This document shows, piece after piece, positions 1 to 63,041 of a stretch of DNA of 64,000 nt (positions are counted from its first letter, which is position 1; each line of letters opens with the position of its first letter). Source of the DNA: Sipunculus nudus (Eukaryota > Annelida > Sipuncula > Golfingiida > Sipunculidae); the NCBI GenBank assembly GCA_026874595.1, contig CM049311.1, positions 72,026,453 to 72,090,452 on the forward strand, written 5' to 3'. The notes under the pieces are model-generated. The model was given only the letters and a program-made list of their open reading frames with translations, ran no database searches and was not told the origin of the DNA. Position numbers and translations under genes: made by a program.

Positions 1-1902
1 GGAGCTTCAGTGTTGAAATTCATGAGGAAGAAAGACTTAACCTCTAGGTGCTAAGGCACAAAACCATTTGTTTTAATTTAAAGATTCCTTCAGTGTTATT
101 GATCGCTTTTTAGCCAACCTGTGAGCTTATGCGATGGTGCGGCGGCATCCGTTGTGCATCGTGTGTTGTGCGTCAGACGTCGTGCATCTTCTGTACGTTA
201 ACCATAGCTATCTCAAAAATGGCAGGAGCTAGCATCACCAAATTTGTTGCAAATAATCAGTCATCCAAAAAACTATATCGGATTTTGTTTATTTTTTTTC
301 TAACTGCATTTTCTTAGATTTTAAAGGGAAAAAGCTAAATAAGCTTTAAAAATCTTTTTCTCCGAAACTGTCCAGCCAAATTGTTCAATATTTCACAGAA
401 ATGATCCCTGGAACAATCTTTCTCAAGTTTGTTCGAATGGTTCCAGTTTGGAGATTTTTGGCCAAGTTACAGGAAGTTGAACTTTGTTAACTGTGCAAAA
501 AAGCATATTAAAATTTAAATCTCAGAAACGGCTTAAGCTATCATCACCAAATTTTATGCCAATGTTGGTCACATAGGTCATATCTGAATTTGTGGTATTG
601 GTTGCGCCACCTGAATCGGCCTTTTTTGTACGGGGTCATTAGTGCCTGTATCACACTGAGGGCTACAAAAAACTTCTTCTCTGAAACAATATGGCCAAAA
701 TGTTTAATATCTCACAGAAATGATCCTAGGGAAGTGCTTTCTGAAGTTTGTTCAAATGGTCTCTTTTGGCTAAGTTATGGGAAGCTGAATTTATATTTAG
801 AATTTTATATTTAATTTAGTCATATGTCATAACAGCCCATTTTAGCTCAGTGGCTACAAAGATCTTCTTCTCAAAAACAACTGGGCCAAATTCTTAAATC
901 TCACACATTAATTATCCTCGATGTTGATAATTCAAGTTTGTTCAAATGGTTTTGGTTCAGTGCTTTTTGGCTGAGTTACGGGAAGGTGAACTTAGCCAGT
1001 TTGCTGTATCTTCCTATATGAGTTATAAACTTGCGAAAGGTTTTTTGACTGATGCCACTGAAGCCAGTTTGTTAAATTTTTTTTCAAGAATAATCCCCAC
1101 AATATTTCTTATAATAATTGTCATTAATGGTTCCACATCAATGATTTTTGGCTGAATTATGGATTTGAATTGAGTCATTTTACCATATATGTTAGCTGTG
1201 TGATGCTGTTACATCTAGCCTGGCACCAATTTATCAGCATCTATTACATCATGCCACTAGACATTTAGATTTCAGGTTATATTTGGTTAATATTGACAAG
1301 AAAGTTTTTTTAAAAGCTTTTAAAAAATCTAGATTTATGATTTAAGTTATTCATCATACCAGGCAATGTTACAATTATGGATATTCAGCTCTCTGTGGCT
1401 ATATAAAGACAACTGTATGTGGATTATAAATTATTGGTATCCCTACTCAACTTAATTAAAGAATTTGCCATCAGTGATATATATCTGTATTTTAATTTTG
1501 CATTCAGTATGCATCTGTAATAATTTAACATATATTCCTGATTTCTTTTTTATAAAAAGTCAGCTGAAAAGCATTTTGTATTGGGAAAATAAATTTCAAA
1601 GTTATTTCAAGTAGGGACCACATTTGTGTACAGATGGCAGCACTTCGTTTACCGTTGGCAGATTGCCAGTGCCTTGATGTTGGCCAATAGCCAAAATGAT
1701 GTCAGCTCTATAAATAGTTTTGGCACAGTGCCAGGATTGGAAGAAGTGCAGCCAGGTATAGGTCAAGAGTTCACTCAGTGGAGTAGCTGCATTCTATTTA
1801 TAGCTTTGGCAGACTGCTCACTGCATCATATTTGGAACCAAAGTTCAGCCTGAATCTATTTATAGCTTTGGCAGACTGCCAACTGTGTCAGATTATGCAA
1901 TA

Positions 1903-1998
1903 GGTCAAGAGTTTACTCAGTGCAGCCAGGTACAGGTCAAAAGCTCACTCAGTCTAGCCAGGTGCAGGTCAAGAGTTCACTCAGTGCAGCAGCTTGAG
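1903..1998 (+). repeat. 32-bp tandem repeat, 3 copies, inside family A copy 1
   Basis: Units start at 1903, 1935 and 1967 and read GTCAAGAGTTTACTCAGTGC followed by a CAGCCAGG-type end, with a few substitutions. The same three-copy array occurs at 37743-37838 in copy 3, so it belongs to the element and is not a local expansion. Confidence 0.8.
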
Positions 1999-2411
1999 GC
2001 AGCAATTTGTCACAGGTCACTCGGGGGCAACTGCCTTACTCACCTAAGCCTTGTCAGCCCAGTGCATCAAACTCTAGGGAAGTTTGATGTATTGGACTGA
2101 TACCTGTCTATGCGTTTTTGATGGTATTCTCATTTACAAGACAGGTGGTGCCACCTACATTGACTTTTGCAGTGTATGTGCCTGCTTATTTCTACAAAGG
2201 AATTTGATACATCAGCCTAAAATTGGGTATGTTTATACATATCGGGTAGCTTTATAGTGTACAGGACTGGTGGCGCCACCTACAATAATTTTTGCACAGT
2301 GTATGTCCCTGCTTATTTCACAGGAGGGGTTTGACATATCAGTCTGACATTGGGCATATGTATATATCTCTTTGTTGTATATAAGACTGGTGGTGCCAGC
2401 TACAATCATTG

Positions 2412-3806
2412 TATCCGCCAAAACAGAGTTCCTCCATAACCACTGGGCAGAATTTTTTTAACATTCGGAATTATGATCGGTCAAATGTGAACTGCTGCAC
2501 CCTCATTTTTGGTTGACCTCTGACCTTTCCTCTCTGCCCAGCGTCCATTTGTGCATCTGTTTCCACACATAAACCCACATCTCTCCGGAACCGGTTGACC
2601 GATAAGGCTAAAGATTTTGCACAAATGTAGCCCTTGGAAAGCTTTATAACATACACAAAAAATGGTGGCGCCACCTGCAACCATTTTTGCACAGCGTCCA
2701 TCTGTTCATCTGTCTTTGGATAAAAACACTCATATCTCTGCATTGGTTGGACTTATCCACCTGAAATTTTGCATGTGTATACACCTTGGAGAGCTTTCTT
2801 GATTGTATGACAGGTGGCGCCACCTACATTCATATTTAAGCTGCAGACTTCAAAGCTCATATCTCAGGAACCATTTGACCAGTTGGGCCAAAATTTTGCA
2901 TGTGTATAGATTTCACATAGCTCTTTATCATATGCAAAACTGGTGGCTCCACCTGCAACCATTTTTGCACAGCGTCCATCTGTTCATCTGCCTTGGGGAA
3001 AAATCACTCATATCTCAGCAGTGGTTTGATTTTTCCACCTAAAATTTTGCAGCTTTATACATCCTTGACAGCTTTCTTGTTTTATGACAGATGGGGCCAC
3101 CTACATTCAAATTTACGCTACAGACATCCAAGCTCATATCTCAGGAAGCATTTGACCGATTTGGCAAAAATTTTGCATGTTTATAGATCTCACATAGGTC
3201 TTTATCATATGTAAACTGGTGGTGGCACCTGCAATCATTTTTGCACAGCATCCGTCTGTTTGCCATGGCATAAAATCACTCATATCTCGGCAGTGGTTTG
3301 ACATAGCTGACTAAAATTTTGCAGGTTTATACATCTTGGAAAGCTTACTGGATTTTGTGGCAGGTGGCGCACCTACATTTATGTATACGCTGCAGACATT
3401 CAGGCTTATATCTCAGGACTGGTTTGACATATCTCCCTGAAATTTTGCATGTGTATAGATCTCACATATCTCTTAATCATACCCAAAAGTGGTGGCGCCA
3501 CCTGCCACCATTTTTTGTACAGTGTCCGTCTGTTTTTTTTTCTGTGGGCTAAAATCACTCATATCTCACTAGTGGTTTGACTTATCTGCCTAAAATTTTG
3601 CATGTTTATACATCTTAGACAGCTCTCTGGATTTTGTGGTAGGTGGCACAACCTACATAAACATTTCGGCTGCAGACATCCAGGCTATTATGCAACACAC
3701 CTCACTCTATTTCCCCTTGCCACTCAATCCATGCCTCACTTCACCTTTCCTACTCTGATTTTGGCGGATACACGTAGTCGCTTGTTGACTACCCATATTC
3801 CAGTTT
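2412..3806 (+). mobile_element. Family G element nested in family A (Helentron/HINE-like)
   Basis: A 12-bp arm TATCCGCCAAAA (2412-2423) has its exact reverse complement TTTTGGCGGATA at 3759-3770. That arm is followed by a hairpin GTAGTC-7nt-GACTAC (3774-3792) and a tail CCATATTCCAGTTT. Family A copy 3 lacks this whole block: there, GCCACCTACAATAA runs straight into TTTTTGTGTTGTGTGCAC (about 38195), the sequence that follows the G tail in copy 1 (3804). Copy 3 is therefore an empty site and G inserted at a T-run. The interior is a dimeric tandem array of about 277 bp with 'catatctc', 'tttgac' and 'ttttgca' modules alternating with GGTGG..CCACC palindromes. Confidence 0.7.
2664..3640 (+). repeat. 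~277-bp higher-order tandem repeat inside family G
   Basis: GGTGG..CCACC modules recur in two alternating sub-types. The first is followed by TGCAACC (2664, 2942, about 3218, 3491) and the second by TACATT (2813, about 3087, 3361, 3640). Same-type spacing is 273-279 bp. Each dimer holds two 'catatctc' modules. Divergence between units is moderate, so the array is not very young. Confidence 0.75.
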
Positions 3807-3998
3807 TTGTGTTGTGTGCACTTATTTCATAATTGCAGCAGTGATGTTTGGTTAATTGTTTCTTGTTCTAAGTGTTTAGCACTTGCATTGATCATATACA
3901 TGTTACACATGTTCTTGAAAAGTAATGGTCCAGCATTGAAGCATTATACCTCGTGTAATCTCATTGCACAGGTTCGTATTAGGCCTGTAGGCCTTGTT

Positions 3999-5091: not shown

Positions 5092-5455
5092 AAGTTATAT
5101 GTACATCTGCAGAGTTTCCATTTCGGTTTGGGACTACTCGACAGGGTGGTAGCACTTGCTTCCTATCATTTTTATTTTTGTATCCTGGTATCACCCAGGC
5201 CCAGTGTCTACCACACCTGCAGGTCCTGGGTGTGTAATTGTCCCCATTGCTGGGTCATAACACCGAGGAACCCCCAAAAGATGCAATTGTATGTGGGTGA
5301 TATAGGATGTGGGGCACAGCCTTCCCATTAAGCCTGCAGAACGCTCACCCTGGTTTGGGGCCGACAGTGAAAAACCTCACCACCTTGGCTGAGATTCAAA
5401 CCCATGATCTCCCGGCTTTGAGTCCTGCGCTCTACCCCTGAGCCACAGGAGCCGG
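5092..5455 (-). mobile_element. tRNA-derived SINE, copy 1 (minus strand)
   Basis: Read on the minus strand, the head has a pol III A box TGGCTCAGGGG (5435-5445 on +) followed about 33 bases on by a B box GGTTTGAATCT (5392-5402). These frame a tRNA-like segment that includes GTAGAGCGCAGGACT. The body runs down to AACTCTGCAGATGTACATA at the low-coordinate end. A second, more diverged copy at 19629-19876 has the same head, body and 3' end, so this is a dispersed family and not a tRNA gene. It carries no protein and would rely on a LINE for retrotransposition. I cannot name the SINE family. Confidence 0.78.
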
Positions 5456-6073: not shown

Positions 6074-8383
6074 TTTAGCTCAGCTGACTGTAAGTCATCT
6101 GAGCTATAGTGATCACCCTTTGTCCGTCGTCCATCTGGACCTAGAAACTTGTAACTTGACATTGTGAAAGGTCCATGAAAAATCTCCTTGGAAACCAGAA
6201 ATTAGGTCTCTGTTACCCATATCCTTTGAGCTATGGGGCCCCAAAGTATCCCCAAGAATAGTCAAAAATTTCATACAAAAACTTCAATATATCATTAACT
6301 ACATCACTGAGTGTGATTATTTTTGGCATACATATTGATCATGAGATGTTCCATCAGTTCCTGCAGACTGGTGGCGCCACCTTTATCTATTGATTTTTTT
6401 ACCAATTTTTTTCTCTATTTTTGAGACCTTTAAAAATGTGAACATCTGTTAAAAGTGCACAAATCGTATTTGCATGGATATTGATCATTGAGTGTTTCAT
6501 CAGTTTCCGCAGACTGGTGGCACCATCTGTATATGTTAGGGTGTTTTTATGAATTTTTTTTCTAAATTTTTGAGACCTTTAAAGATATGAACATCTGTTA
6601 ACAAGGCACAAATCATAACAACTGGACCAAGAATCTTCATTCTTGACACCCAGGGAAACCCATGAAAAGTCTTGATGGAAACCTGAAATTAGGTTTCTGT
6701 TACCCATATCCTTTAAGCTGTATGGCTCCAAAATACCCCCCAGAATAATGATAAATTTGATACAAAAACTGCAGTATCTCAACAACTACAACACTGATGT
6801 TCATGATTTTTGGCATACATATTGATCATAAGGTGTTCCATCAGTTTCTGCAGACTGGGTGTGCCTCCTCTATTTTTTTTTTTTTTTTTCAAATATTTAC
6901 AAATTTTTTTCTCTATTTTTGAGACCTTTAAACATGTGAACATCTGTTAACAGTGCACAAATCGTAACAACTGGACCTAGAATCTTCATTCTTGACACAC
7001 AGGGAGACCCATGAAAAGTCTCCAAGGAAACCTGAAATTATGTCTCTGTTACCCATATCCTTTGAGCTATGGCACTCCAAAGTACAGCTCAGAATAATGG
7101 AAAAATTGATACATAAGCTGTCGTATCTGAACAACTAATGCAGAGATCACCATAATTGTTTGCATGGATATTGATCATTGAGTGTTTCATCAGTTTCTGC
7201 AGACTGGTGGCACCATTTGTATTTGTTAGGGTGTTTTTATGAATTTTTTTTTCTCAATTTTTGAGACCTTTAAAGATATGAACATCTGTTAATAGGGCAC
7301 AAATCATAACAACTGGTCCAAGAATCTTCATTCTTGACACACAGGGAGACCCATGAAAAGTCTCGATGGAAACCTGAAATTAGGTTTCTGTTATCCATAT
7401 CCTTTAAGCTGTATGGCTCCAAAATACCCCCCAGAATAATGATAAATTTGATACAAAAACTGCAGTATCTCAATAACTACAACACTGATGTTCATGATTT
7501 TTGGCATACATATTGATCATATGGTGTTCCATCAGTTTCTGCAGACTGGTGCGCCTCCTCTATTTATTTTTTTTTTTCAAATTTTTACGATTTTTTTTCT
7601 CTATTTTTTGAGATCTTTAAAGATGTTGTTATCTGTCAACAGGGTACAAATTATAATAACTGCCCTAGATTCTTCATTCTTGTAATGCAAGGAGGCCCAT
7701 GAAAAGTGGCACTCCGAAGTATCCCTCAGAATAATGGTAAATTTGATACAAAAGCTGAAGTATCTGAACAACTAATGCAGAGATCACCATGATTCTTTGC
7801 ATGGATATTTATTATAAGGTGTTCCATCAGTTTCTGCAGACTGGTGGTACAACCTATATTTTATTCAATTTTTTGAATTTTTTTCTCAATTTTTGAGACC
7901 TTTAAGGATGCTGTCATCTGTTAAAGTGGCACAAATTGTAACAACTTGACCTAGAATCTTCATTCTTGTCATGCAAGGAGGCCCATGAAAAGTGTCTGTG
8001 GAAACCTGAAATTGGGTCTCTGTTTCCCATATCCTTCAAGCTAAAGGACTCCGAAGTATCCCTCAGAAAAATGGAAAATTTTATACAAAAGCTGAAGTAT
8101 CTAAACAACTAATGCAGAGATCACAATGATTCTTTGCATGGATATTGACCATGTGTTTTTATTAGTTTCTGCAGACTGGTGGAGCCACCTGTATTTTTTT
8201 TTAAAGTTTACACATTTTTTCTCTATTTTTGAGATATATAAATACAGACACAATCTTGGCCTGTTGGTTAATCTGTTTGATGCTTCAGTTGAATGGTTAT
8301 ATACTACTATTCAGTGATAAAGTTTCCTTTTGCGAATCTCTTCCCAGTCAGCTGAGCCTCATGACGCATGGGTCACTTGTTTT
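6074..8383 (+). mobile_element. Family B element, copy 1 (Helentron/HINE-like, divergent subfamily)
   Basis: The 5' end TTTAGCTCAGCTGACTGTAA continues to TCATCTGAGCTATAG and folds as a near-perfect hairpin. The 3' end is TCAGCTGAGC (8348-8357, inverse of the 5' arm), then TGACGCATGGGTCA and CTTGTTT. The interior is a tandem array of units of about 340 bp, marked by GCAGACTGGTGG at 6363, 6509, 6850, 7199, 7541, 7836 and 8171. One unit is short (146 bp) and one is 295 bp. Minus-strand open frames of 60-70 codons recur once per unit. They are shadows of the repeat and resemble no protein I know. Confidence 0.72.
6363..8171 (+). repeat. ~340-bp tandem repeat, about 6 units, inside family B copy 1
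   Basis: The spacings between GCAGACTGG landmarks are 146, 341, 349, 342, 295 and 335 bp. Each full unit contains 'tgagacctttaaa', 'gaatcttcattcttg', 'cccatatcctt' and 'ttgatcat' modules in the same order. Confidence 0.85.
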
Positions 8384-9071: not shown

Positions 9072-9864
9072 TTTAGCGAACCTGTGAGCTCATGGATGGT
9101 GCGGCGTCATGTTTCTTGTGTTGTGCATCGCTGTACTTTAACCATTGTTATCTCAAAAACGGCTGAAGTTAGCATCACCAAATTTTTTGCAAATAATCGG
9201 TCATCTGAAAAACCCTATCGGATTTTATTTTTTTTCTAACTGCATTTTCTTAGATTTTATAGGGAAAGGGCTAAAAAAGCTTTAAAACATCTTCTTCTCC
9301 TAAACTGTCCAGCCAAATTGTCCAATATTTCACAGAAATGATCCCTTGAACAATCTTTCTCAAGTTTGTTGAATGGTTTCAGTTTGAAGATTTTAGGCCG
9401 AGTTACAGGAGGTTGAACTTAGTCATCTGTCCAAAAAAGCACAATAAAATTAAAATCTAAAAAAACAGCTAGAGCTATAATCACCAAATTTTATACCAAT
9501 GTTTGTCACATATGTCATATCTGAAATTGAGGTATTGGTGGCGCCACCTACATTGATGTCTTTTTTCAAGTGAAAGTGTAATTTTTAACTCTTCTAGCTT
9601 ATACACTGATTTATGGTGAAACTGTTAAGCTGATTGGTTTAAACTTTACAAGAATTTTTCTATGGTAGGGTTCTGCCAGTTTTATAAGAATAGATTGGGT
9701 AAATACAGCTTTAAAAAAGCATTGTAGCCAATTGAAAAAGGCTTTCTGTGTTTGAAAACAGATTTCACAACATGCTGAGTTTCATCAGCCAAGTCAAGAG
9801 GTCACTCAGTACAAACAGGTGGGGTCCAGACATCACCATGGCAACTGACCTGGCTCTGGCGGGT

Positions 9865-9927
9865 GTCTAGACAATGTGTCTAGATGTCTAGACACAGCCT
9901 CTAGATGTCTAGACACAAAGTCTAGAT
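9865..9927. repeat. 3 x 21-bp repeat, each carrying the palindrome GTCTAGAC
   Basis: Units begin at 9865, 9886 and 9907. Each starts GTCTAGAC and ends TCTAGAT or a close variant. GTCTAGAC is the palindromic Smad-binding element of the TGF-beta/BMP literature. Here it is spaced at two helical turns. It is present only in this copy of family A. Any regulatory role is inference. Confidence 0.7.
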
Positions 9928-10510
9928 GCAGAATTCCCAGATTATTGAAACTATATCTTTCAACTGTTTGAAAAAACTTGGTTTGCATTTTAAGCGAATC
10001 TGGTTTATCATCAGGTCACATGTGAACTGCTGCGCCCTCATTTTTGGTTGACCTCTGAACTTTCCTCGCTGCCCAGCGTCCATTTGTGCGTCTGTTTCCA
10101 CACATAAACCCACATCTTGGGAACCGGTTGACCGATCAGGCTAAAAATTTTGCACAAATGTAGCCCTTTCATAGCTTTATAACATACACTAAAATGGTGG
10201 CGCCACCTGCAACCATTTATGCACAGCATCCATCTGTTCATCTGCCTTGGGATAAAATCACTCATATCTCAGCAGTGGTTCAACTTATCCACCTGAAATT
10301 TTTCAGGTTTATACATCCTGGACAATTTTCTCAATTTTATGACAGGTGCACCACCTACATTCACGTTTACGCTGCAGACAACCATGCTTATATGCAACAC
10401 ACCTCACTCTATTTCCCTTGCCACTTAATCCATGCCTCACTTCACCCGTCCCACTCTGATTTCTGCAGATACACATAGTCACTTGTCGACTACCCATATT
10501 CTAGTTTTAA
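9923..10510 (+). mobile_element. Probable second family G copy, nested in family A copy 2
   Basis: From about 10016 this stretch parallels 2479 onward in G copy 1 (GTGAACTGCTGCGCCCTCAT). It ends with TAGTC-8nt-GACTA and CCCATATTCTAGTTT, the same hairpin-plus-tail as G copy 1. The 3' arm TTTCTGCAGATA is roughly mirrored by TAGATGCAGAA at 9923-9933. The interior array is contracted to about one dimer. Confidence 0.5.
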
Positions 10511-10678
10511 AATGTCCTAGTCTGAAACTTGCAGGTCTGAAACGTCCATTTTGCTGAAATCATAATGACTAAGGTAGATATGCAGGACTTAAGAGGATCA
10601 ATATTAAATTTTAAAAATAAACCTCCATTCATACTCCCAAACTTTGCACAGGTTCGCATTAGGCCTGTAGGCCTTGTT

Positions 10679-19876: not shown

Positions 19877-19944
19877 TTTATGTACCTCTTTTATTTCGCA
19901 TCTTTTGACTCTCTTACTTTCTCCATTGTAAATTACTGGTCCCC

Positions 19945-20678
19945 TTTTTAGACCTCAGCCCTAAGGCTGATGGGCTATTGTTGTCACCCAAGCTGTCCGT
20001 CTGTCCGTACAGCGTCCGTTAACTTTCACCTTGTGAGTGGGATATCTTGAAAAGGATTCACCTTAGGAATTATATTTTTTCAGTGAAGATGTATATTGAC
20101 AAAATCGCAGTCAAGTTCGAAGATGGGTGACCTTGACCTATTTTTCTTTGTTTTAGAGCTGATTATAGAAAAAACATTTAGAAGCTTTTTTCTCAGGAAC
20201 CATTGGGTGGATTTTCACAATACTAACTATGATCATAGGGACTGATGGTCTGTAAATGCTGCACAAGTTTGGTGGCGCCACCTACAATTTCTGATTTTTA
20301 ATGAATTTTTCTTGGATTTTTAAACTTGGGCTTGTGAGCAGGATATCTCTAAAAGGATTCACAGTAGGAATTTTATTTTTTTGGTGAAGATGTATATCGA
20401 CAAAATCTCGGTCAGGTTCGAAGATGGGTGACCTTGACCTATTTTTCAAGGTCACAGAGCTTATAATAGAATAAAACTTAGAAGCTTATTTTTCAGGAAG
20501 CATTTGGTGGGTTGTTATGAATCATGGTTCATGACTCTCCATTTCAAATTTATAAATGAGACATGTATCGATATACATCCATGTGAGAACAGATATTTAG
20601 TACTTCTTACTGTTACCACCTCTAAACACTGTTCTTTTGGCTGAGGGCTTTTGTCAGCTTCTGCTGATATTCTAGTTT
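19945..20678 (+). mobile_element. Family C element (Helentron/HINE-like, 0.73 kb)
   Basis: It opens TTTTTAGACCTCAGCC. TCAGCC-CTAA-GGCTGA (19955-19970) is a perfect 6-bp hairpin. The 5' arm GACCTCAGCC is mirrored by GGCTGAGGGC (20639-20648, 9 of 10). The 3' hairpin TCAGC-TTCT-GCTGA (20654-20667) and tail TATTCTAGTTT follow. The interior is two copies of a unit of about 301 bp (landmark GTGAG at 20033 and 20334), each with TGACCTTGACC, plus one GGTGGCGCCACC palindrome (20271). No ORF. Confidence 0.78.
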
Positions 20679-33092: not shown

Positions 33093-33380
33093 TTGCCTCC
33101 GCCTGGAGGGTATGTGTTCAGCCCCGTTCATGTGTTTGTGTGTTTGTTCACATCGTAACTCATGCAATCATGAACAGAATCTCATGAAATTTCAGACACA
33201 TGATCTGAATTCAGGAATGTCAGCAAGGAATATTCACAAATGTGCAGTGACTTACATACTAATGAACCTGGAAATCTGGACCAAATTTGTGAATGCAAAC
33301 ACGGTTTTGGGAGCATTCCACAATAGGGATGCCCACATGGTGGAGTCTGCTTTCATTCCATAGAATGCAGTTTTCTAGTT
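33093..33380 (+). mobile_element. Family F element (short Helentron/HINE-like, 0.29 kb)
   Basis: The 5' end TTGCCTCCGCCTGGAGGG forms a CCTCC-GCCT-GGAGG hairpin (33096-33109). The 5' arm CCTCCGCC is mirrored by the decayed GGTGGAGT (33339-33346, 6 of 8). A CATTC-CATA-GAATG hairpin (33354-33367) and tail CAGTTTTCTAGTT follow. The interior begins 'gtatgtgttcagcccgttcatgtg'-like, with no tandem array. The 3' tail is nearly that of family C. Confidence 0.62.
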
Positions 33381-35353: not shown

Positions 35354-35990
35354 TTTTTTAGCGAACCTGTGAGCTTCATTCGATGGTGCGGCTTCGTGTG
35401 TCGTGCGTCGTCTGTACGTTAACCATAGCTATCTCAAAAACGGCAGGAGCTAGCATCACCAATTTTTTTGCAAATATTCAGTCATCCAAAAAACTATATC
35501 GGATTTTGTTTATTTTTTTTCAAACTGCATTTTCTTAGATTTTATAGGGAAAAAGCTAAAAAAAACTTTAAAAATCTTCTTCTCTGAAACTGTCCAGCCA
35601 AATTGTCCAATATTTCACAGAAATGATCCCTGGAACAATCTTTCTCAAGTTTGTTCGAATGGTTCCAGTTTGGGGATTTTTGGCTGAGTTACAGGAGGTT
35701 GAACTTTGTTAACTGTGCTAAAAAGCATATTAAAATTTAAATCTCAGAAACGGCTGGAGCTATCATCACCAAATTTTATGCCAATGTTGGTCACATGAGT
35801 CATATCTGAAATTGAGGTATTGGTGGCACCACCTGCATCGGCCTTTTTTGTATTGGGTCATCAGTGCCCGTATCACACTGACAGCTACAAATAACTTCTT
35901 CTCTGAAACGAAATGGCCAAATTGTTTAATATCGCACAGAAATGATCCTAGGGTAGTGCTTTCTGAAGTTTGCTCAAATGGTCTCAGTTC

Positions 35991-36698
35991 AGTGACTTTT
36001 GGCTAAGTTATGGGAAGCTGAATTTAGTCATATGCCATAACAGCCCATTTTAGCTAAGTGGCTACAAAAATCTTCTTCTCAAAAACCACAGGGCCAAATT
36101 CTTAAATCTCACATATTAATTATCCTAAGATGTTGATAATTCAAGTTTGTTCAAATGGTCTCAGTTCAGTGACTTTTGGCTGAGTTATGGGAAGCTGAAT
36201 TTAGTCATATGCCATAACAGCCCATTTTAGCTAAGTGGCTACAAAAATCTTCTTCTCAAAAACCACAGGGCCAAATTCTTAAATCTCACATATTAATTAT
36301 CCTAAGATGTTGATAATTCAAGTTTGTTCAAATGGTCTCAGTTCAGTGACTTTTGGCTGAGTTATGGGGAGCTGAATTTAGTCATATGCCATAACAGCCA
36401 ATTTTAGCTAAGTGGCTACAAAAATCTTCTTCTCAACAACCACTGGGCCAAATTCTTAAATCTCACACATTAATTATCCTGAGATGTTGATAATTCAAGT
36501 TTGTTCAAATGGTCTCAGTTCAGTGACTTTTGGCTGAGTTATGGGAAGCTGAATTTAGTCATATGCCATAACAGCTCATGTTAGCTAAGTGGCTACAAAA
36601 ATCTTCTTCTCAAAAACCACTGGGCCAAATTCTTAAATCTCACACATTAATTATCCTTAGAAGTTGATAATTCAAGTTTGTTCAAATGGTTTTGAATC
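35991..36698 (+). repeat. 177-bp tandem repeat, 4 units, inside family A copy 3
   Basis: AGTGACTTTTGGCT landmarks fall at 35991, 36168, 36345, 36522 and (diverged) 36699, exactly 177 bp apart. The central units are nearly identical. Copy 1 has a single equivalent unit near 956, so the array expanded within copy 3. Confidence 0.9.
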
Positions 36699-37510
36699 AG
36701 TGATTTTTGGCTGAGTTATGGGAAGCTGAACTTTGCCATTTTGTTGTATTTTCCCATATGAGTTATAAACCTACAAAACGTTTTTCGACTGATGATGATA
36801 CTGAGGCCAGTTTGTTTAATATTTTGCAAGAATAATTCCCTGAATCATTCTTATAATAATTGTCTTTTATGGTTCCAAAAAATGAATTTGGCTGAATTAT
36901 AAAGATTGAATTGAGTCATTTTACCAAATATGTTAGCTGTGTGAAGCAGATACATCTAGCCTAGCACCAGTTTATCAGCATCCATTACATCATGCCTCTA
37001 GACATTTAGATTTCAGGTTATCTATGGAAAATATTGACAAGAATGTTTTTAAAAGCTTTTAAAAAAATGTAGATTTATGATATTACATATCATCTGTACA
37101 CTAACTCATAATTTCTCAGAAATAGCAGGTGCTACCATCCCCAAATGTTATGCAATTATCTGTCACATATCAAATGTTGATGGATTCATCTTATTTTTGC
37201 TATCTGAATTTACTTAGATTTTACAAGGAAAAAGCTGATAAAAACTTGTAAAAGTCTTCTTCTTGTAAACAGTCCAGCCAAATTGTCCAAATTTTACAGA
37301 AATGATCCCAGAGGCAAGCCCTCTCAAGTTTGTTCAAATGGTTTGTGTTGGATAAATTTTAGCAGAGTTACATAACAGGCCAAGATTGTGTACGTTTCTT
37401 GAATAGGTTGAGAAACTGACAACTGTTTCAGATTTGGCAAAAGATCAAGAGTTCATTCAGTGCAGCCAAATATAGGTCAACAGTTCAGTCAGTGCAGCCA
37501 AGCACAAGGC

Positions 37511-37600
37511 ATGTGATCATCTCATGGGCACCATGTGATCATCTCATGGGTAGCATGTGATCACCTCATGAGTATCATGTGATCACCTCATGGGTGTCAT
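37511..37600 (+). repeat. 22-bp tandem repeat, 4 units, with TGATCA palindromes
   Basis: The unit ATGTGATCATCTCATGGG and variants start at 37511, 37533, 37555 and 37577. Each holds TGATCA and a CTCATG motif. Confidence 0.85.
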
Positions 37601-37916
37601 GCCCCTCAGGGCTGCATATGGAGCCAATCTGTGAGCTTATGCAATTGTGTGGCTACTGTTTCAGATTTGGCAATAGGCAAAAGGTCAGCCTGGATTTATT
37701 TATAGCTTTGGCAGACTGCCAACTGTTTCAGATTATGCAACAGGTCAAGAGTTCACTCAGTGCAGCCAGGTACAGGTAAAAAATTCACTCAGTCTAGCCA
37801 GGTGCAGGTCAAGAGTTCACTCAGTGCAGTAGCCTGAGCCAGTAATTTGTCACAGTACACTCGGGGCAACAGTCTTTCTCACCTAAGCCTGGTCAGCCCC
37901 GTGCATCAGACTCAAG

Positions 37917-38036
37917 GTAAGTTTGATGTATTGGCCTGATATTCTGACCTGTCTATGTGTTTTTATGGCTTTCTCGGTAAGTTTGATGTATTGGCCTGAT
38001 ATTCTGACCTGTCTATGTGTTTTTATGGCTTTCTCG
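37917..38036 (+). repeat. Exact 60-bp tandem duplication
   Basis: Two identical 60-bp units begin GTAAGTTTGATGTATTGGCC and end in a CTTTCTCG string. Copy 1 has a single diverged equivalent near 2080-2130. Identity of the two units points to recent duplication or an assembly artefact. Confidence 0.9.
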
Positions 38037-38657
38037 TTCACAAGACAGGTGTCGCCATCTACAATGACTTTTGCAAAGTGTATTTGCCTGCTTAATTCTA
38101 CAGAAGAATTTGATTTATCAGCCTGAAATTGGGCATATGTGTACATGTCAAATAGCTTTGTTGTATACAAGACTGGTGGTGCCACCTACAATAATTTTTG
38201 TGTTGTGTGCACCCATGCCAGAATTTCAGCAGTGATGTTTGTGTATTGTTTCTTGTTCAAAATGTTTAGTACTTGCATTGTTCATATATATGAAAAGTAG
38301 TGGGTCAGCACTGAAGCGTTATACCTGGTGTATATCCATATGCACAGGTTCGCATTAGGCCTGTAGGCCTTGTTTAATTGTAGAGTATGGGTTAATTGAT
38401 TTGGAAATCTATCTGTGCATATAATAAGTGAAAAATTTACATTTTCTGGGTCAGCTTATCTGTCACATCATTACAATAACATTTTGATATTTAAAAAGTG
38501 TGCTGGATGACCTTGTAGAGAATAATAAGGTCACATCGAAACTGACTTATATATCATAAAAAAATATTTCTCAGTAAACCACAAGTGATAATAATAGATA
38601 TGTTATCAGTGGTGGCAATGTCACACCATGGGGTTGTTACTATTTACTTATTCATCC

Positions 38658-41266
38658 TTTTTAGCTCAGCTGACTATAAGTCATCTGAGCTATAGTCGTG
38701 GTCCATTGTCCGTCGTCCGTCCATCTGTCTGTCCCTCTGGATGTCCGTCCGTAAGACTGGCACGTTTCTACACCATTCGACCTACGAATCTGAAATTCGG
38801 CATGCAGTTAGATGTCCCCAAAATCTCCTACCATGCCAAAAATTGAGTCAATATGACTTCGTTCCTTTCGAGATATTAGGGAAAAACCTCAATTTTTTAT
38901 TAGAAATCTATTTTCACACTTCAGGACTGCCTTATATCAAAACCACTCATCTGGTTTTCTTCATTTTTACCATAAATATTCCTCTATATGGTTCCTATGT
39001 ACATGCCAGAAAATAAGTCAGTATTATTTAATTTAAAAAAGTTATGGGCCCAAACATAATGGACTTTGTAAAAAAATGAGGAAAGATATTTGGTCACTTA
39101 AGACCAAAAGTGTTATAGGTAGGAACTTTTTTTCAGTAATACTACTTTAAATAATCAAAATTTAATTGTATATCAAAAATTAGATCAAAATCTGTTAAAT
39201 TTTTTTAAATATTGGCAAAAATATAAAATTGGCACCTTAAATTTTGCCCAAGTTTGACCATGGCACGTTTTTTTCCTGTAACTGCTGTGGATTTAATTTT
39301 CAAAGCATGTTTTTGTTACCATTTTAACTGTTAAATCAAAAAATTTGAAACCAGTTGATCAAAAACTGTAGATTTTATTCACGTTTTCAAGCACCATTTC
39401 ACATATTGTTTACAACAAGCTAGTGTTATGCAGTTTACTAGAGCTCAGCTCCCCAGCTTCAGCTCTAAGTTCCTTAAATTTTGCATACAGTTAGATGTCC
39501 CCCAAATCCTCTACCATAGTAAAAGTTTGGTCACTAGGACCTAATTCCTTCGAGATATTGAGAAAAAACTTCATTTTTCCATTAAAATCCATTGTTACAC
39601 TTTAAGATTGCCTAATATCAAAACCACTGATCTGACTTTGATCATATATGATATACATATTTTTCTATACATTCGCTATGCATATGCCAGAAATGATGTC
39701 AGTATTGTGTAATTGTTTTAAGTTCTAGGCCCAAACATAATGCACTTTGTAAAAATTCAAGAAATATATTTACTCTCTTAACATGAAAATTGCTGAAGGT
39801 AGAGATTTTTTGCCAGGGATATAACATTATTTAATCAAGATTCAATTGTATTCCAAAAAATTAGTTCTGAATTTTTCAAATTTTTAAGTTATTAGCATAA
39901 ATATAAAATCAGTACCTTAAATTTTGCCCAACTTTGGCCATGGCATGTTTTTTCCCTGTAAGCACTGTTGATTAAATTTTCATATCTTGCACACGTAAGG
40001 ATTTTAGCTTCTAAATTCTGAAGTTATAAAAGGAATTGGTCAAAAACTAGCTTTTATGAAAGTTTTTATGAGATCATATTACACCTTGGCTGTACTGAAG
40101 CTCCTCTTTTATGTCCCCACATTGACCTTTCAGGCCAATTATGCATGCGTGAAGCGAGGCACTCTGCAGCCAGCCAGCTCTTGGGTGGCTTCAACTGGAT
40201 CTAACTGTCCAACCCCCTCCACTAGAATTTGTTTAGGCCATAAACATAACAATTAACTTTTTTTTAATTCTTGGTTTATGATAAAAACTTAAAAAAAATA
40301 AACGGAAAAGGAATTTATAGTTAATGAGTTACAGGGGATTACCTTGCAATTACTGATCATTAATGGATCTTCCATGGATGGCCAAAATTATATTTCAAAT
40401 TATACCATGCAGTCATCATTGGGTATTTTTCATTTTAACCATAAAAATGAAAAATAAATAATTAAAATAAATTGTTGTTTACTATTAGGGATTATATGAA
40501 GCAAGATAATGATAGACAAGGATGCAGTTGATTATATTAAATTAATCTAAATTTCCAGGTCTTTTCCAGGTGTTTAACTTGTTTGTTTATATTTATAACA
40601 AAATTAAAATAATAAATAAATATGTCAAAAATTTAAAATATTACTCAGACAAGTGCTCATTAAAGATTTTAATTTGTTTGACTTATAACTCATGGTTGTA
40701 TCAGTTGTTACATGATACTGGCTAAATAATCAAAATTTATATTGCTGGTCCTTTATTTCAGTTCATAAAATTAAACATTCCCAACTCCAGTTTGCTCTTG
40801 GTATAATATATTGGGTGTTTTGATCCTTGAATTAATTTTAACACATGTATTAGTTTTATAGCTGAGAATACTTTTTTTTTTCCTGATACCATTTGAAAAA
40901 AATATAAATATTCAAATTTTTCCTGTTAGTGCTGTGGATTTAATTTTCACAGCATGTACACATTAAAATTTCATCTGTTAAAATCTGAAAATTGAAACCA
41001 ATTGATCAAAAACTGTAGATTTCATTCAAGTTTCCAGGTACCATGATTTCATTGTTTACATCAGATCAGTATAAATGCAGTGTACTGGGCAGTTACATAA
41101 CACCTTCAGGTCTGACCTACTGCCACTGTGAGTGTCTGGGTCAGGCAGGGTCAGGCAGTAATTACAAGAGAGCCTCTCTTTCTCTCTCTCTCTGGCAGTC
41201 TATGTCTCTCTTTTTCTCTCTCTCTCTCTCTCTCCTCTGCTTTTTCTCTTTCTTTCTCCATCTTTC

Positions 41267-41307
<41 letters not shown>

Positions 41308-42675
41308 AATTGCCTCCCTTCCTCCCTCCATCCCATTCTGTTGACAGTTACTATAAACTAGATACATTAGCTATAAATGTTGATGCAATTTAGAAATGTG
41401 AATCAACTGAAGTATTCACAATAACATGTATGTTATACTGTAAATTTATAGTAACATTCTGAAACTTGGATTAAAATTATGTAATGAAAAAAAGGAATAA
41501 ATGCAAATATTGTTAATTTTTTCTTGGCTCAGTAGAATGGGGAAAAAATTATTTGCTTTGTTTCTCCATCTTTCTGTCTGTTTTAAATATTTAATGTTCA
41601 TGAATAAACTTTTTTTTTTATAAGCAATGTTGAATTAAATTTCATATCCTGTATGTATATGCAAGGGTGTTGTAACTCACCATCCCCTTCTTCATCCCAC
41701 TGAGGCTTTGCTCCTTGGCACTGTGAACAATACTTCTATGGCTATAGCATAAAATTTAATAATTAAAGAAAATATCTACAGAGAGACAGAGGCGTTGTAA
41801 CTCTGATCATAACACAACTGCCCCCCCCCCCCCCCATCAAGTCAGTGCACCTGTGGAATGGGGACGTTATGGCAACTGTATACATATCATAAAATTGATA
41901 ATAAAGGTTTACCAAATAAATTGGATCTCATCAGACAAATGTGTAAACTGTTGAACTATCAACAGCTCATCAAAAAGGTAACCAACGGAAAGCCAGGGTC
42001 AGGTCTCAAATATTATTTTCAACATTTTCTTCAATCATATGAACCAACCATGGCCCAGATTACCTCTTCCTCTCAAACATTATCTACATTTCATCATATT
42101 TTTAAGATTTTAACCTTCCTGGTGGTTCAGTACTGTTAATCATTTGTCCATAGGTACCTATGTACATGCCAGAAATTATGTCAATATTGTGTAATTTGTA
42201 GACGTGAGGGGCATCAAAATAATGCACCTTGTCAAGACCGATCTTGTCAAGATATTATGTCATACAGTCACAAATTCATAAATCCCCTCATCAGCATAGT
42301 TAATCATAACATTGTATCTGTCAAATTGAACTCGTGCAGTTTTCCATACACTATAGATCCTTCAACAAATAGCCTTATCATCATTATACCACTGCTAAGC
42401 ATACTGTCATTGGATTCATATTTGCTCAAATAAATTGCTTTTTTTTACCCCTCCCAAATAAATAAAAAATAAACCACTATATTTTACTCGATATTAATCC
42501 ATCAGTCAGGTTATTTCTTATATCATTTACCCACATATTACATTATATTCCTTTATAAAAGCCCAACATGACCATGATATTCTAAGCTTTATCTACTCAA
42601 TATAGTATCACAATGGTGATACATTTATAGTCCAATCATGTTCAGCTGAGCGCCGTGACCCATGGGTCCCTTGTT
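38658..42675 (+). mobile_element. Family B element, copy 2 (Helentron/HINE-like, 4.0 kb)
   Basis: The 5' hairpin starts TTTTTAGCTCAGCTGACT, then ATA, AGTCATCTGAGCTATAG (14-bp stem, one mismatch). The 3' end is TCAGCTGAGC (42642-42651), TGACCCATGGGTC (42656-42668), CCTTGTTT. A GTCCGTCC-rich tract (38705-38755) follows the 5' hairpin. The interior has three diverged tandem segments of about 1 kb ('agatgtcccc..ctaccat', 'attaaattttgccca' modules), a CT-rich tract (41174-41305) and poly-C (41821-41835). No transposase frame. Confidence 0.78.
41174..41305. repeat. (CT)n-rich tract within family B copy 2
   Basis: Imperfect CT/TTTC repeats. A matching CT tract followed by 'ccctccttcctccatcc' occurs in family B copy 4 (62061-62130), so it is part of the element. 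Confidence 0.85.
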
Positions 42676-49485: not shown

Positions 49486-52400
49486 TTTTTAGCTCAGCTG
49501 ACTATAAGTCATCTGAGCTTATGTCATGGTCCATTGTCCGTCGTCCGTCCGTCTGTCTGTCTGTCCGTCCGTCCGTCCGTCTGTCTGTCCGTCCGTCTGG
49601 ATGTCCGTCCGTAAGACTGGCACGTTTCGACACCGTTGGACCTACGAATCTGAATTTCGGCATACAGTTAGATGTCCCCATAATCTCCTACCATGCCAAA
49701 AATTGGGTCAATAGGACTTCGTTCCTTTGAGATATTAAGGAAAAACCTCAATTTTTTATTAGAAATCTATTTTCACACTTCAGGACTGCCTAATATCAAA
49801 ACCACTCATCTGGTTTTCTTCATATTTACCATAAATATTCCTCTATATAGTTCCTATGTACATGCCAGATATTAAGTCAGTATTATATAATTTAAAAAAG
49901 TTATTGGCCCAAACATAATGCACTTTGTAAAAAAAATCAGGAAGATATTTTGTCACTTAAGACCCAAAGTGTTAAAGTTAGGGACTTTTTTCCAGTAATA
50001 CAACTTTAATTAATCAAAATTTAATTGTATACCAAAAATTAGATCAAAATCTGTTAAATTTTTTTAAATATTGGCAAAAATATAAAATTGGTACCTTAAA
50101 TTTTGCCCAACTTTGGCCATGGCACGTTTTTTTCCTGTAAGTACTGTGGATTTAATTTTCATACCATGTATACATAAGGATTTAATCTGTTAAAATCTGA
50201 AATTTGAAAATAAAAGCTCTAAAATTAGGCTAGTTATTGAATTTTTTTTGGAGGCTCTTGTTGTATTCCCTTACATTGTCAAGCAGTCCACTTTGATGAC
50301 TGTAGGTCATTCAGTGCACATCTCTATGCTCCCCAGGCTGTTGACATAATTTTAGATGTCCCCAAAATCTCCTACCATACCGAAAATTGGGTCATTAGGA
50401 CTTTGTTCCTTCGAGATATTAAGGAAAAAAACTCCGTTTTCCATAAAAAAAAGCCATTGTTACACTTCAAGGCTGCCTAATATCAAAACCACTGATCTGT
50501 TTTTGATCGTATTTAGTATTCACATTCTTTTATACATTTTCTATGAACATACCAAAAATTAGGTCAGTATTGAGTATTATTTTGAAGTTATGGGCCAAAA
50601 CATAATGCAATTTTTAAAAAAATCAGGAAATATATTTACTCACATGAGAATTGATGAACCTAGAGACCTTTTTTCAGGAATATAACTTTATTTAATCAAA
50701 ATTCAATTGTTTACCCAAAATTAGATCAGAATTTTGCAAATTTTTCAAGTTATTAGCATAAATAAAAAACAATACCTTAAATTTTGTCCAACTTTGGCAC
50801 TGTTGATTTAATTTTCCCAGCATATATGCATAAGGATTTAATCTTTTAAAATATGAACTTTCAAAAGAAATTGATTGGAATGAATAGCTTTTATTCATGT
50901 TTTCACACACCATGTCAAGTGTTGTTTACATCTAGCCCACCTAGTAGTACAGCCTTCACTTGCATTATGTAACCCACCCCAGGCAGCTTACCTTGGCCCA
51001 GCTTGGCCACTACTAGCAGGCTTCCCCTGGCCCTGCACTCATCCCCCCCCCCCCCCAGCTGGTGCATAAACTAGATGAATGTTATAATTTTTCTGTATTT
51101 TATTTTATTCTTGGACATGCTACATTTTAGATTTTGTATTGAACCACCAGGGTTACAATGATTAAAGTGTACATTTAATTGTGTCCACAAAGTGGTGTAT
51201 TGCTGTGAAAGTCTGGATGTTCATGAGATAAGTAATTCCTTACTTCAGAAGAGTAAAAACTTCACCAGGTGTGAAATTGACTATTAATTCCAGTAATTAA
51301 TTAAAACTGGGATAGTAATTAGCACAATGATATTGTTTGTCCCTCATTCAACCAACAGTGTGTATACTTTATTTGAAAAGATGTTTTATTTTGTCAAATT
51401 TACTTTTATTTTATTTTGGTAAATAAAATTAAGCATGTCCTGAAAACTCCAATATGCAAAACTTTTTAATAGTGATTCAAGGAATATTCTTGTAGATGCC
51501 ATGTTGTGGCATTATTTTCTTTTAAAATCAGTTAAAACATTTATGATTTAAAAATAATAAAATATATGTGTATGCATAATATGACCCAATGTTTTTTACT
51601 CTGTATATATAATGATTGCAACTTTTGCAACAGTTCTAATATTTTAACTTATATTTTCAGGTTTTTTAATTAAAAATTTATAAACCTGTAAATAAAAAAA
51701 TGATACAGATAAAAACTTCTTAATGGAAAAAGTGGATCTGCTTAAAACAATAGGATTATATATAAACTTAAATGCATTATTCTCTTGAAAGTGAAATAAA
51801 GGTATTAGTCCATTCTGTCCACTTGCCTGTCCATCTGTAAATTTTCGTATGCAACACAGTATCTCAAAACTTTTACTGTTTTTCTTCATGACAGTCTTGT
51901 CAGAGTATTAGTTTGCAATCATATATTTAGAACTTTACTATAACCAAGTAGGAGGGCCCCTTTCCTCTTAGCTTTTCATATTCTTATATAAATAAAAAAC
52001 ATTACAATAGAATATTTCTACATCCACCTTCGTGCTGCCCTCACTTTTCCCTTCTCCGAACCCCATCCCAAAGTCAGCCTCAGTAAGCAAGAACAAGATG
52101 AATCAGATATATTCATACTTTAATATTTTGTATAACTATTCGTCCATAGGTACCTATGTACATGCCAGAAATTATGTCAATATTGTGTAATATGTAGACA
52201 TAGTGGGCATCACAATAATGTACCTTGTCAAGACTAAAGAGATATTGTGTCATACAGTCACATATTCATAAATCACTTCATCAGCATAGTTAATCATAAC
52301 ATCTTATCTGTCAAATTGAACGCTTGCAGACTACCATACACTTTAGATCCTTCAACAAATAGCCTTAATATCTACTACTGCTTATTACTGCTGTCATTGC

Positions 52401-52661
52401 ATTCATATTTGCTCAAATATATCACAATTTTCAACCCCTCCTAAATAAATAAAAAATAAACCACTTTATTTGACTCTATTAATCCATCAGTCAGGTAATT
52501 TCATTTATCATTTACTCACATATTACATTACATTCCTTTATAATAGCCCAACATGTACATGATATTCATAAGCTTTATCGACTCGATATAGTATCACAGT
52601 GGAGAAACATTTATAGTCCAATCACGATCAGCTGAGCGCCGTGACCCATGGGTCCCTTGTT
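49486..52661 (+). mobile_element. Family B element, copy 3, inserted into a family D/E repeat
   Basis: TTTTTAGCTCAGCTGACT, ATA, AGTCATCTGAGCT at the 5' end. The 3' end is TCAGCTGAGC (52628-52637), TGACCCATGGGTC (52642-52654), CCTTGTT. It is collinear with copy 2: the first 500 bp and the last 500 bp are near-identical by eye. Family D sequence on the left (TCAAGGTCA unit at 49431) continues on the right ('gacacctggtgacc', 'ttcaaggtaaattctgcaaatatataggatttatgttaaccc' region), which fixes the element's boundaries. Poly-C lies at about 51043-51057. Confidence 0.8.
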
Positions 52662-61418: not shown

Positions 61419-62611
61419 TTTTTAGCTTAGCTGACTATAATTCATCTGAGCTACAGTCAGTTGGTCCATTGTCCATCCAGCTGATAACAGGGCTGTTTTT
61501 AAAACTGTTAGACCTTTGAATTCAAAATGCAACAAAGAGTTAGATGTCCCCAAGTTCTCCTACCAAACCTGAACCTGGGTCACTGTGACTTCGTTCCTTC
61601 AAGAAATTAAGGAAAAAACCTCCATTTTCCAGTAAAAACCTTTTGTTACAAAACTGCCGTCTATGATAACACTGTTGTTAATCTATTTATATTTGATATA
61701 AAAGTTCCTGCATATATTTCATATACTGCATGTATATGCCAGAAATTAGATCAATATTGCGTAATTCTATGAAGTTGTGGGCCCAATCACCATACCCCCC
61801 CCCCTCACCACACCATTGCCATTGAGCCCTTGCACCTGTGGACTGGCCCATTAGTTTTATAGCAACTATATTAAGGATTTATTAAATGAGAAAAAAAAAT
61901 TAGTCTTATAAAAATTTTAAGATCTAATTAAAACATATTTTTATATTCTTGCCTCAGCAGAATGGGACATAACGTGAACAGCTCTGTCTGTCCATCTCTG
62001 TTAATCATTAGATATATAATAATATGAATCAACTTTTTTCCTATAAGCACTGTTGAATTTTCCCCTCTCTCTCTTTCTATTTATTTCTTTCTTTTTTTCT
62101 CTCTTTCTCTCTCTCCCGTCCTCCCTTCCTCCATCCAGACTTATTAATACATTAACGCATTTGTTGTTGGTCAAATGTATCCTTTCATTTAACTCTTAGG
62201 CACATGTTCTTTTTCCTTGTTGCATTATTCAATGGTTTCAGTCCACAGTTTTCATGTATTACACAATACAATATTTATTTATCTGAAAAAGTTTATGCTC
62301 ATTAGAAAATGGAATTTTTTACAGCATTGTATTTCAGTGAATTAATAAAATTCTTTATTATTATACTTTAGCTAATCTCCACTTTCTTCCTTATTCTATC
62401 TTTGACAGGTGTTCATACATTCCCATGGTTATTTTATGCACATATTACACATATAGGTGAACTACTGATACTTCTAGAAATATTTGGTCATGAAAGACTC
62501 CTGCATCTTTGATATAGTCCATCAAAGTGCACAGTAATTGTTCAGCGAATATATATTTAATATGTGATTATCACCAGTTAGCAGGGCCATTTCTTTTTAA
62601 TTTTTCGATTA

Positions 62612-62678
<67 letters not shown>

Positions 62679-63041
62679 AGAATATTTTGAATTTGCTAAA
62701 ATTTTCCCAAATTCAGCTGAAGTTGTTATATATTGAACCTTATCATCCCAAGGTCTAGCTATCTTCAGAGTGGTATTGCCCTAACTATAAGTATTATAGG
62801 AACTTCTATTTAGGAATTTCTGGGCAAAACTTCACGCTTTCTTAAACATTTACTTTATGCAGATTTTGAAGATACTTTTACACTTTTTATGAAGAACATT
62901 AAGTGGTCTTAATTGATAAGTAGGTAATTGTTACAGTGAATGTTATCATGAGTTATATTGAACACCATGCCCAGATATATTGAAGCTTCTGACTTCTGAC
63001 TGAACAATCACTTTAGATTTTAGACCAATGAATCCCTTGTT
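61419..63041 (+). mobile_element. Family B element, copy 4 (Helentron/HINE-like, diverged)
   Basis: It starts TTTTTAGCTTAGCTGACTAT, then TTCATCTGAGCTACAG. The interior shares 'agatgtcccc..ctcctacca', the CT tract (62061-62130) and poly-C (61795-61804) with copies 2 and 3. The 3' end is decayed: GACCAATGAATCCCTTGTT (63023-63041) matches the family's GACCCATGGGTCCCTTGTT at 16 of 19 positions. A (TA)n tract sits at 62615-62672. Confidence 0.65.
62615..62672. repeat. (TA)n microsatellite within family B copy 4
   Basis: An uninterrupted AT dinucleotide run of 58 bp. Confidence 0.93.

Follow-up and report, generated by a model that had tools for sequence, protein, structure and literature searches.

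Two abundant repeat families of Sipunculus nudus share their ends with Helentrons of the same genome

Helentrons are mobile DNA of a known rolling-circle class, and HINEs are their gene-less relatives. The HINE end plan comprises a subterminal inverted repeat whose partner is set back from the 3′ end, a 3′ palindrome, internal tandem repeats and insertion into T runs without detected duplication. For Cg_HINE of the oyster Crassostrea gigas, the authors report, in the excerpts consulted, that they were unable to relate the elements to autonomous Helentrons (PMC7492417). Excerpts from two other papers give the rule that 11 bp of identical subterminal inverted repeats (subTIRs) define a family (PMC4067079), and record that Helitrons with a tegument-like domain occur in molluscs too (PMC9741609).

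Here we analyzed five repeat families (A, B, C, F and G) in 64,000 nucleotides of the Sipunculus nudus genome, the whole of which we call the window. We consider it very likely that these families are non-autonomous Helentron-type rolling-circle elements, that is HINEs. Their end plan is the published HINE plan and to that extent known already; new is that two very abundant HINE families, A and B, are tied to Helentron parents in one genome. The features of the window are as follows.

109..3998, + strand: family A copy 1; A5 and A3 with 1 mismatch each; holds G copy 1 at 2410-3805
2410..3805, + strand: family G copy 1; 14-bp arms; inserted in A copy 1
6074..8381, + strand: family B, core type 1; B5 with 1 mismatch, B3 with 5; tandem array of 342-bp repeats
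9072..10678, + strand: family A copy 2; A5 and A3 exact; 5′-decayed G piece inside at 10005-10507
10005..10507, + strand: family G, a piece within A copy 2; G3 with 6 mismatches of 48
19949..20677, + strand: family C, only window copy; 8-bp arms, hairpin CAGC-TTCT-GCTG, CTAGTT tail, palindromic 5′ arm
20271..20282, no strand assigned: example of the palindrome GGTGGCGCCACC, common to A, B, C and G
33092..33380, + strand: family F, only window copy; 5′ palindrome CCTCC-GCCT-GGAGG, TTCTAGTT tail, imperfect arms; weakest case
35357..38374, + strand: family A copy 3; A5 and A3 exact; empty site for G near 38190
38660..42675, + strand: family B, core type 2; B5 and B3 exact
49488..52661, + strand: family B, core type 2; B5 and B3 exact; sits in a CTTCAAGGTCA array
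61421..63041, + strand: family B, decayed copy; B5 with 2 mismatches, 3′ end reduced to a CCCTTGTT tail, 3′ arm lost

An earlier note on this DNA had ascribed one end architecture to all five families. Checks of positions and arms bore this out for A, B and G, less firmly for C and least for F. The arm pairs it quoted for A, B and C were located in place, those of G proved longer than given (14 bp, TGTATCCGCCAAAA / TTTTGGCGGATACA, intact in one of two window copies), and the F pair matches at only 6 of 8 positions by hand count. A subterminal inverted repeat with a set-back 3′ partner is thus present in A (11 bp), B (10 bp), G (14 bp) and C (8 bp), while F falls short of it. The A arms are perfect in two of three window copies, copy 1 carrying one altered base per arm; when its 5′ region was used as a query, 19 of 43 other genome rows started at window positions 105-110 and none before 105. 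The B arms are present in three of four copies, the fourth missing its 3′ arm. A 3′ palindrome or stem-loop is present by sequence in all five families, followed by one of two tails: in A and B the hairpin directly abuts CTTGTT, and in C, F and G 4-8 nt separate it from CTAGTT. Folding energies of the 3′ ends were unremarkable (z -1.54 for A, 0.43 for B, -2.28 for C, -1.51 for F and -0.75 for G), the hairpins of all five folding no better than shuffles. The same analysis returned strong 5′ palindromes in B (z -5.83) and C (z -4.33), a weak one in F (z -1.66) and none in A or G. Central tandem repeat units measure 177 bp in A, 342 bp in B type 1 and 272 bp in G; C holds two 180-bp repeats, and a GTCC-type microsatellite lies at 49536-49612 within the B copy at 49488-52661.

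Two scans compared this geometry with chance. The first sought exact arms of at least 8 (or at least 10), a hairpin stem of 5 and a tail; because of the stem and exact-arm requirements it was blind to B and F. With arms of at least 8 it found six structures on the + strand (four real family copies and two accidental) and none on the - strand, against a mean of 1.15 and a maximum of 5 in 60 shuffles; with arms of at least 10 it found three, against a mean of 0.18 and a maximum of 1. The second scan, which also required a palindromic 5′ arm, found four 3′ ends (three of B, one of C) and none on the - strand, against a mean of 0.9 and a maximum of 3 (n = 40); the partner printed for one B end is accidental. 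By these counts, the geometry of C and F alone is not beyond chance. C and F could alternatively be ordinary sequence in which a short inverted pair and a hairpin happen to lie together. This would agree with the shuffle yield per window, with their being single copies and with the imperfect F arms, but C combines a strong 5′ palindrome, its two repeats and the shared palindrome GGTGGCGCCACC, and we regard such an origin as unlikely. Their structure instead suggests that C and F are HINEs. As a general account of A, B and G, chance was rejected: the case for A and B is secured by their repetition, that for G by the length of its arms and a complete 1.39-kb copy on another contig.

The families had also been described as unrelated and without similarity. 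This holds for the arms only and is otherwise too strong, as central repeats are common to A and G, and the palindrome GGTGGCGCCACC to A, B, C and G. B, in turn, places the same ends around two different cores. A literature search on GGTGGCGCCACC found nothing related.

Comparison of filled and empty sites, which the earlier note had proposed, revealed no target duplication at the sites tested (G in A; A in B). The joined flanks of G in A copy 1 align across the empty site in A copy 3, and G sits in a T run. A inserted in B shows a T|T junction; for another A insertion, in a B type 1 core, the empty site was compared by the left flank only. Around the B copy at 49488-52661, the CTTCAAGGTCA array aligns across the insertion with a score of 128; the best of 200 shuffles scored 67. 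T-run insertion without detected duplication is therefore established for A and G, and approximately for B. Together with the complete copy elsewhere, the filled/empty pair supports G as a HINE. Inverted repeats, high copy number and lack of coding could also describe MITE-like elements of a cut-and-paste transposon; given undupli­cated target sites, asymmetric ends and Helentron partners, this is barely conceivable, and we rejected it; for A and B it is already contradicted.

Genome-wide, exact 3′ ends numbered 3,625 for A (1833+1792), 2,792 for B (1440+1352) and 59+67 for G, with none in the reversed-sequence control for any of the three, placing A and B in the thousands of copies. Searches of viral contigs with three end or core patterns gave no matches for any of them, Rfam gave none over gathering scores, and Pfam, run on 9 of 17 window frames of at least 100 aa and one exon frame, gave nothing over cut-off.

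An unexpected lead is that A and B elements keep a coherent insertion strand over about 100 kb, in each family by itself as well as from one to the other; the SINE control for this coherence failed, its 27-letter pattern having only 2 exact matches. One tentative and rather doubtful idea is that the local chromosome sets the direction of Helentron insertion: T runs exposed on one strand would receive the single-stranded intermediates. The simplest candidate for that strand is the non-template strand of transcribed genes, and neighbouring elements, whatever their family, would then share one orientation. Among the titles that a literature search listed, none concerned a Helitron orientation bias in relation to introns or the transcribed strand. 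If confirmed with a gene map, strand coherence would allow a direct test of the sites and the strand that rolling-circle transposons choose for insertion.

The search for a Rep/helicase frame flanked by matching ends, also proposed earlier, yielded partners for A and B and none for C, F or G. A B-type Helentron at C17:35625477-35640364 (contiguous pieces L043-L045) has an open frame of 2342 codons. It starts with B5 (3/32 mismatches), and a second B5 (2 mismatches) lies 724 bp further in, so that its exact start is ambiguous; B3 (4/34 mismatches) follows about 1 kb past the frame. Its protein matches Herpes_teg_N (47.4 bits), DUF6570, Helitron_like_N and PIF1 over the Pfam cut-off; the C-terminal endonuclease (EN) match is weak (Exo_endo_phos, E 2.5e-4, 21.3 bits versus a curated cut-off of 24.5), and another Helentron of the same genome has an endonuclease over cut-off. 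Piecewise, the identity of its first 1.6 kb to the B type 1 core is roughly 66-89%, the central repeats of the copy at 6074-8381 corresponding to this 5′ region. The A-type Helentron, at C11:50955505-50972075, is broken and has A5 exact and A3 with 1 mismatch. After A5 comes the 5′ half of A, then N-terminal Helentron sequence, a Rep match of 88.7 bits and an EN sharing 42% identity with the C17 one, and finally the 3′ half of A with A3. Neither A5 nor B5 lies between Rep and A3, and PIF1 had no match in the three longest frames of this element. Beyond these two, 18 more 3′ flanks of Rep or EN matches were read: a B end was present in 11 and an A end in 2, while 2 had a different end built on the same plan and 3 had no known end, one of these last following the 2420-codon open frame of L046. 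No flank supplied a partner for C, F or G: L063 has one G3 copy after its coding region, but beyond a B end. On C1, a G 3′ end close to an endonuclease match was rejected as the end of a G parent, being that of a complete non-autonomous G.

Helentrons with matching ends thus directly establish A and B as HINEs, as the earlier assignment to Helitron2/Helentron non-autonomous elements had it, and membership is probable for C, F and G. Two families out of five have gene-carrying parents with matching ends in this genome, so the design common to the ends is a known one. Canonical Helitron1 features (5′ TC, 3′ CTRR, insertion between A and T) are not those of A and B, which end in CTTGTT, or of A and G, which sit in T runs. 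It is improbable that only A and B derive from Helentrons while C, F and G are of the Helitron1 type: their hairpin followed by CTAG resembles the canonical 3′ end in the excerpts of PMC4067079, but in all three the 5′ arm recurs inverted, set back from the 3′ end, G lies in a T run rather than between A and T, and two Helentrons with endonuclease (L051, L052) also end in a hairpin and CTAGTT.

Since the arms differ, the earlier note had offered two alternatives, a transposase reading structure or several autonomous lineages. The second is supported: A and B each have their own Helentrons, related lineages about 52% identical near Rep (48-53% between the A and B elements tested), and a third Helentron group carries other ends. 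The group with most top-ranked Rep matches includes C11:50385293 and C13:66180677. Several autonomous lineages account for the different arms, and structure-reading is not needed; as a necessity it was rejected. One transposase lineage moving all five families by hairpin structure rather than arm sequence would explain why geometry is kept while arms differ, and in L061, which looks like a chimera, the 3′ part of a B-like coding region is followed by an A 3′ end, indicating that reassortment between coding parts and ends can occur. Protein lineages within B, however, retain the same 10-bp arms with EN only 46-48% identical, which argues that arm sequence matters, and we judge such a single lineage very unlikely. 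Different arms accompany different but related Helentron lineages.

The ends common to Helentrons and to A and B suggest that both families arose by internal deletion from two related Helentron lineages, keeping the parental ends and part of the non-coding repeats. A related full-length element would supply the Helentron protein (Rep nickase, PIF1-like helicase and endonuclease), which would recognize the ends; one strand would be copied as a single strand or circle, copying would stop at the 3′ hairpin, and the copied strand would be joined into a T run without target duplication. Helentron proteins presumably continue to act in this way.

Compared with known systems, as far as the excerpts describe them, FoHeli, a Helitron2-like element of Fusarium, shares asymmetric terminal inverted repeats, hairpins and a 3′ repeat that lies about 20-40 bp from the end, but has no endonuclease, and its termini and target differ (PMC5148889). 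The C17 Helentron, by its Herpes_teg_N match, is a further instance of Helentrons with a tegument-like deubiquitinase domain (PMC9741609). HINE-Mo families and DINE-1/Helentrons resemble those described here in their subTIRs, 3′ palindrome and variable-length T runs, in several families with different subTIRs per genome and in a Rep-helicase-endonuclease partner, but differ in sequence; under the 11-bp rule A and G qualify as families, B (10 bp) and C (8 bp) falling just short (PMC4067079). Cg_HINE has in common with the present families subterminal inverted repeats, a complementary repeat beside the 5′ one, a GTCC-type microsatellite, central tandem repeats, a 3′ palindrome, T-rich sites without duplication and the same ends around different cores. 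In these excerpts we found no mention of the GGTGGCGCCACC palindrome of A, B, C and G; unlike Cg_HINE, A and G have no 5′ palindrome, and A and B have autonomous partners (PMC7492417).

The Rep/helicase reading frame that the earlier note suggested seeking between family ends was found for B. Searching the genome of S. nudus (1.4265 Gb, 153 contigs) with PF14214 gave 143 matches, several of them within frames of more than 2,200 codons, and the Helentron at C17:35625477-35640364 (loci L043-L045) carries a B 5' end, an open frame of 2,342 codons and a B 3' end. Herpes_teg_N, DUF6570, Helitron_like_N and PIF1 scored over the Pfam cut-off in this element and Exo_endo_phos below it; in a different Helentron of the same genome, Rep, PIF1 and Exo_endo_phos all exceeded the cut-off. 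The Herpes_teg_N domain of the B-type protein (L043-L044) is known from Helentrons, according to the available text of PMC9741609. Non-autonomous B copies have two cores between the same ends (types 1 and 2), and the C17 element shares its central repeats with type 1.

For A, a coding partner was recovered in part: Rep and endonuclease lie between A ends at C11:50955505-50972075, in a broken reading frame. This element comprises an exact A 5' end, the 5' half of A, nested B and A pieces, a Helentron N-terminus, Rep, an endonuclease (42% identical over 300 aa to that of the C17 element), the 3' half of A, containing a nested G, and the A 3' end. Neither an A nor a B 5' end was seen between its Rep and its A 3' end. 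Another, near-identical Helentron group, with open frames of more than 2,200 codons and long 3' tandem arrays, was observed at C11:50385293 and C13:66180677.

Complementarily, we surveyed the flanks 3' of 10 Rep matches, picked for long frames and variety, and of 8 endonuclease matches, picked for low identity to the C17 element.

Ends found in the 3' flanks of Helentron coding matches
L049, L050, L054, L055: B type 1 end
L047, L048, L057, L058, L059, L062, L063: B type 2 end
L056, L061: A end
L051, L052: further end, GCGGGGGCATTC + GTGTCG-TTC-CGACAC + AT + CTAGTT

Three of the 18 flanks (L046, L053, L060) held no known end. Exact A ends occur 3,625 times in the genome (one per ~394 kb) and exact B ends 2,792 times (one per ~511 kb); given the genome-wide end density, ~0.07 exact B type 2 ends would be expected on the coding strand of 71.5 kb of flank, and four were seen (L047, L057, L062, L063). 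L051 and L052 represent a third group of Helentrons, which has an arm of its own and the tail CTAGTT, of the class found in C, F and G. At L057 (465-510, reverse strand), a B 3' end abuts a B-like 5' start, resembling head-to-tail rolling-circle copies.

The note had left two options, a transposase reading structure more than sequence or several autonomous lineages, and the second was supported: A and B ends sit on different Helentrons, and L051 and L052 add a third end. A tree built from 16 Rep regions placed the A element next to its B counterparts (support 0.90) and united B types 1 and 2 in a clade (0.99). The Rep of the A element was 48-53% identical to those of four B elements and 34-39% identical to those of the nine other Helentrons matched. 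Between type 1 and type 2 partners, the endonucleases were 46-48% identical in their longest matches and the arms were the same. Since B elements keep their arms constant despite this protein divergence, and A has different ones, recognition seems to involve arm sequence, with several lineages present. Locus L061 (C5:47838000-47840200), whose B-like coding 3' region stops at 393 and whose A sequence runs from 449 up to an A end, is apparently a chimera of a B type 2 Helentron (3' region) and A (3' half and end), which counts against a strict rule of one end per lineage.

Comparing filled with empty sites, as the note had advised, showed no duplication beyond T-run ambiguity for G in A and for A in B. 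G sits inside A copy 1, the corresponding site is empty in A copy 3, and the joined flanks align straight through, the only ambiguity being a T run. At L005, an A element has inserted into a B element between two T residues, and the junction shows neither duplication nor loss; at L008, where the left flank is covered, the T run in which an A element begins belongs to a B type 1 repeat. The B copy at 49488 lies within an array that aligns across the insertion (score 128, against at most 67 in 200 shuffles), the array being too diverged to exclude duplication of a few bases. When the window's first 2,000 bases served as query, no other matching row started before query position 105, and 19 of the 43 such rows started at 105-110. 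On C1, a complete G copy retains both termini and is as long as G copy 1 in the window.

The description of the families as unrelated held in part. A and G share central repeats, and the cores of A, B, C and G share a palindrome, GGTGGCGCCACC; flanks beyond it in C had no significant similarity to A, B or G copies. Three overlapping 12-letter words occurred in four of six element groups, all of them GGTGGCGCCACC with its neighbours; among 20 non-element controls, no word reached four groups and two had one word in three.

Occurrences of the palindrome
Window 2269, 2664, 2813, 3491, 6370, 9537, 10196, 20271 and others: GGTGGCGCCACC

Counted together with the following T, it has 8 exact copies in the window, 15 if one mismatch is allowed, against an expected 0.00014 for the 12-mer. 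Across ~290 kb of loci selected around such elements, GGTGGCGCCACC occurred 37 times and its reversed control never. We take it as a putative protein site that has been conserved, or as a remnant of the cores' common descent.

Besides the Helentron parents linked to A and B, the interest lies in strand. The window is intron-like, with at least one plausible exon by eye (11594-11740, + strand, no Pfam match), and all 11 copies in it are, like the exon, in + orientation. Across the whole genome, element strands are balanced. Over 0-28 Mb of contig C1, nested or duplicated copies included, strand was coherent over ~100 kb, both among copies of one family (A or B) and between the two. For the first 100 listed A copies (to 25.5 Mb), 71 of 99 neighbour pairs agreed (shuffle mean 50.0; none of 20,000 shuffles as high): 13/13 below 20 kb, 23/27 at 20-100 kb, 22/35 at 100-300 kb and 13/24 beyond. 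Among the listed B copies, 60 of 99 pairs agreed (P 0.026): 13/15, 21/28, 13/25 and 13/31, respectively. Listed B copies matched the nearest A within 100 kb in 41 of 53 cases (circular shifts averaged 26.8; 0/99 reached 41), and for six of seven G copies below 27 Mb the closest A or B among those listed had, by eye, the same strand. Outside elements, runs of at least five in the window number 157 for T and 120 for A, an excess too mild to account for the coherence; flank skew around seven A copies was mixed, five being T-rich.

Other elements were observed in the window.

45743-47000: decayed B-like 5' end, then a CTTCAAGGTCA-rich array
~13775-15780: element with long terminal inverted repeats TACCGTAAAAGTCGTTGCAGAA (by eye)
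~33522-34336: TTAA plus ends CACTTTTGCTGCC / GGCAGCGAATGTG (by eye), presumably piggyBac-like
30403-30667 and 31105-31354: inverted repeat of ~250-265 bp, 75% identity
~5180-5455 and 19650-19880, - strand: tRNA-like SINE copies (by eye)

In addition, the window has 13 occurrences of TCAAGGTCA or TGACCTTGA, where ~0.8 would be expected; TCAAGGTCA resembles a nuclear-receptor site.

The common end architecture claimed for all five families was clear in A, B and G and weaker in C, with perfect arms of 11 bp in A (two of three window copies), 10 bp in B (three of four), 14 bp in G (copy 1) and 8 bp in C; the arms quoted for F match, by hand, at only 6 of 8 positions. By hand count, the 3' arm stops 21 (A), 24 (B), 31 (C), 34 (F) and 33 nt (G) short of the end of the element. 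A structural scan of the window found six hits with arms of at least 8, two of them accidental (shuffle mean 1.15, maximum 5), and three with arms of at least 10 (mean 0.18, maximum 1); a second scan, restricted to palindromic 5' arms, found four (mean 0.9, maximum 3). Judged against these shuffles, geometry therefore leaves the single-copy C and F unproven. In the available text of PMC4067079, PMC7492417 and PMC5148889, HINEs, Helentrons and Helitron2 are described with the identical plan of subterminal repeats, 3' palindrome and tandem repeats, with T-rich targets left unmodified, and one genome may hold several families with different repeats. The families are of this known kind, an assignment that is well supported for A and B.
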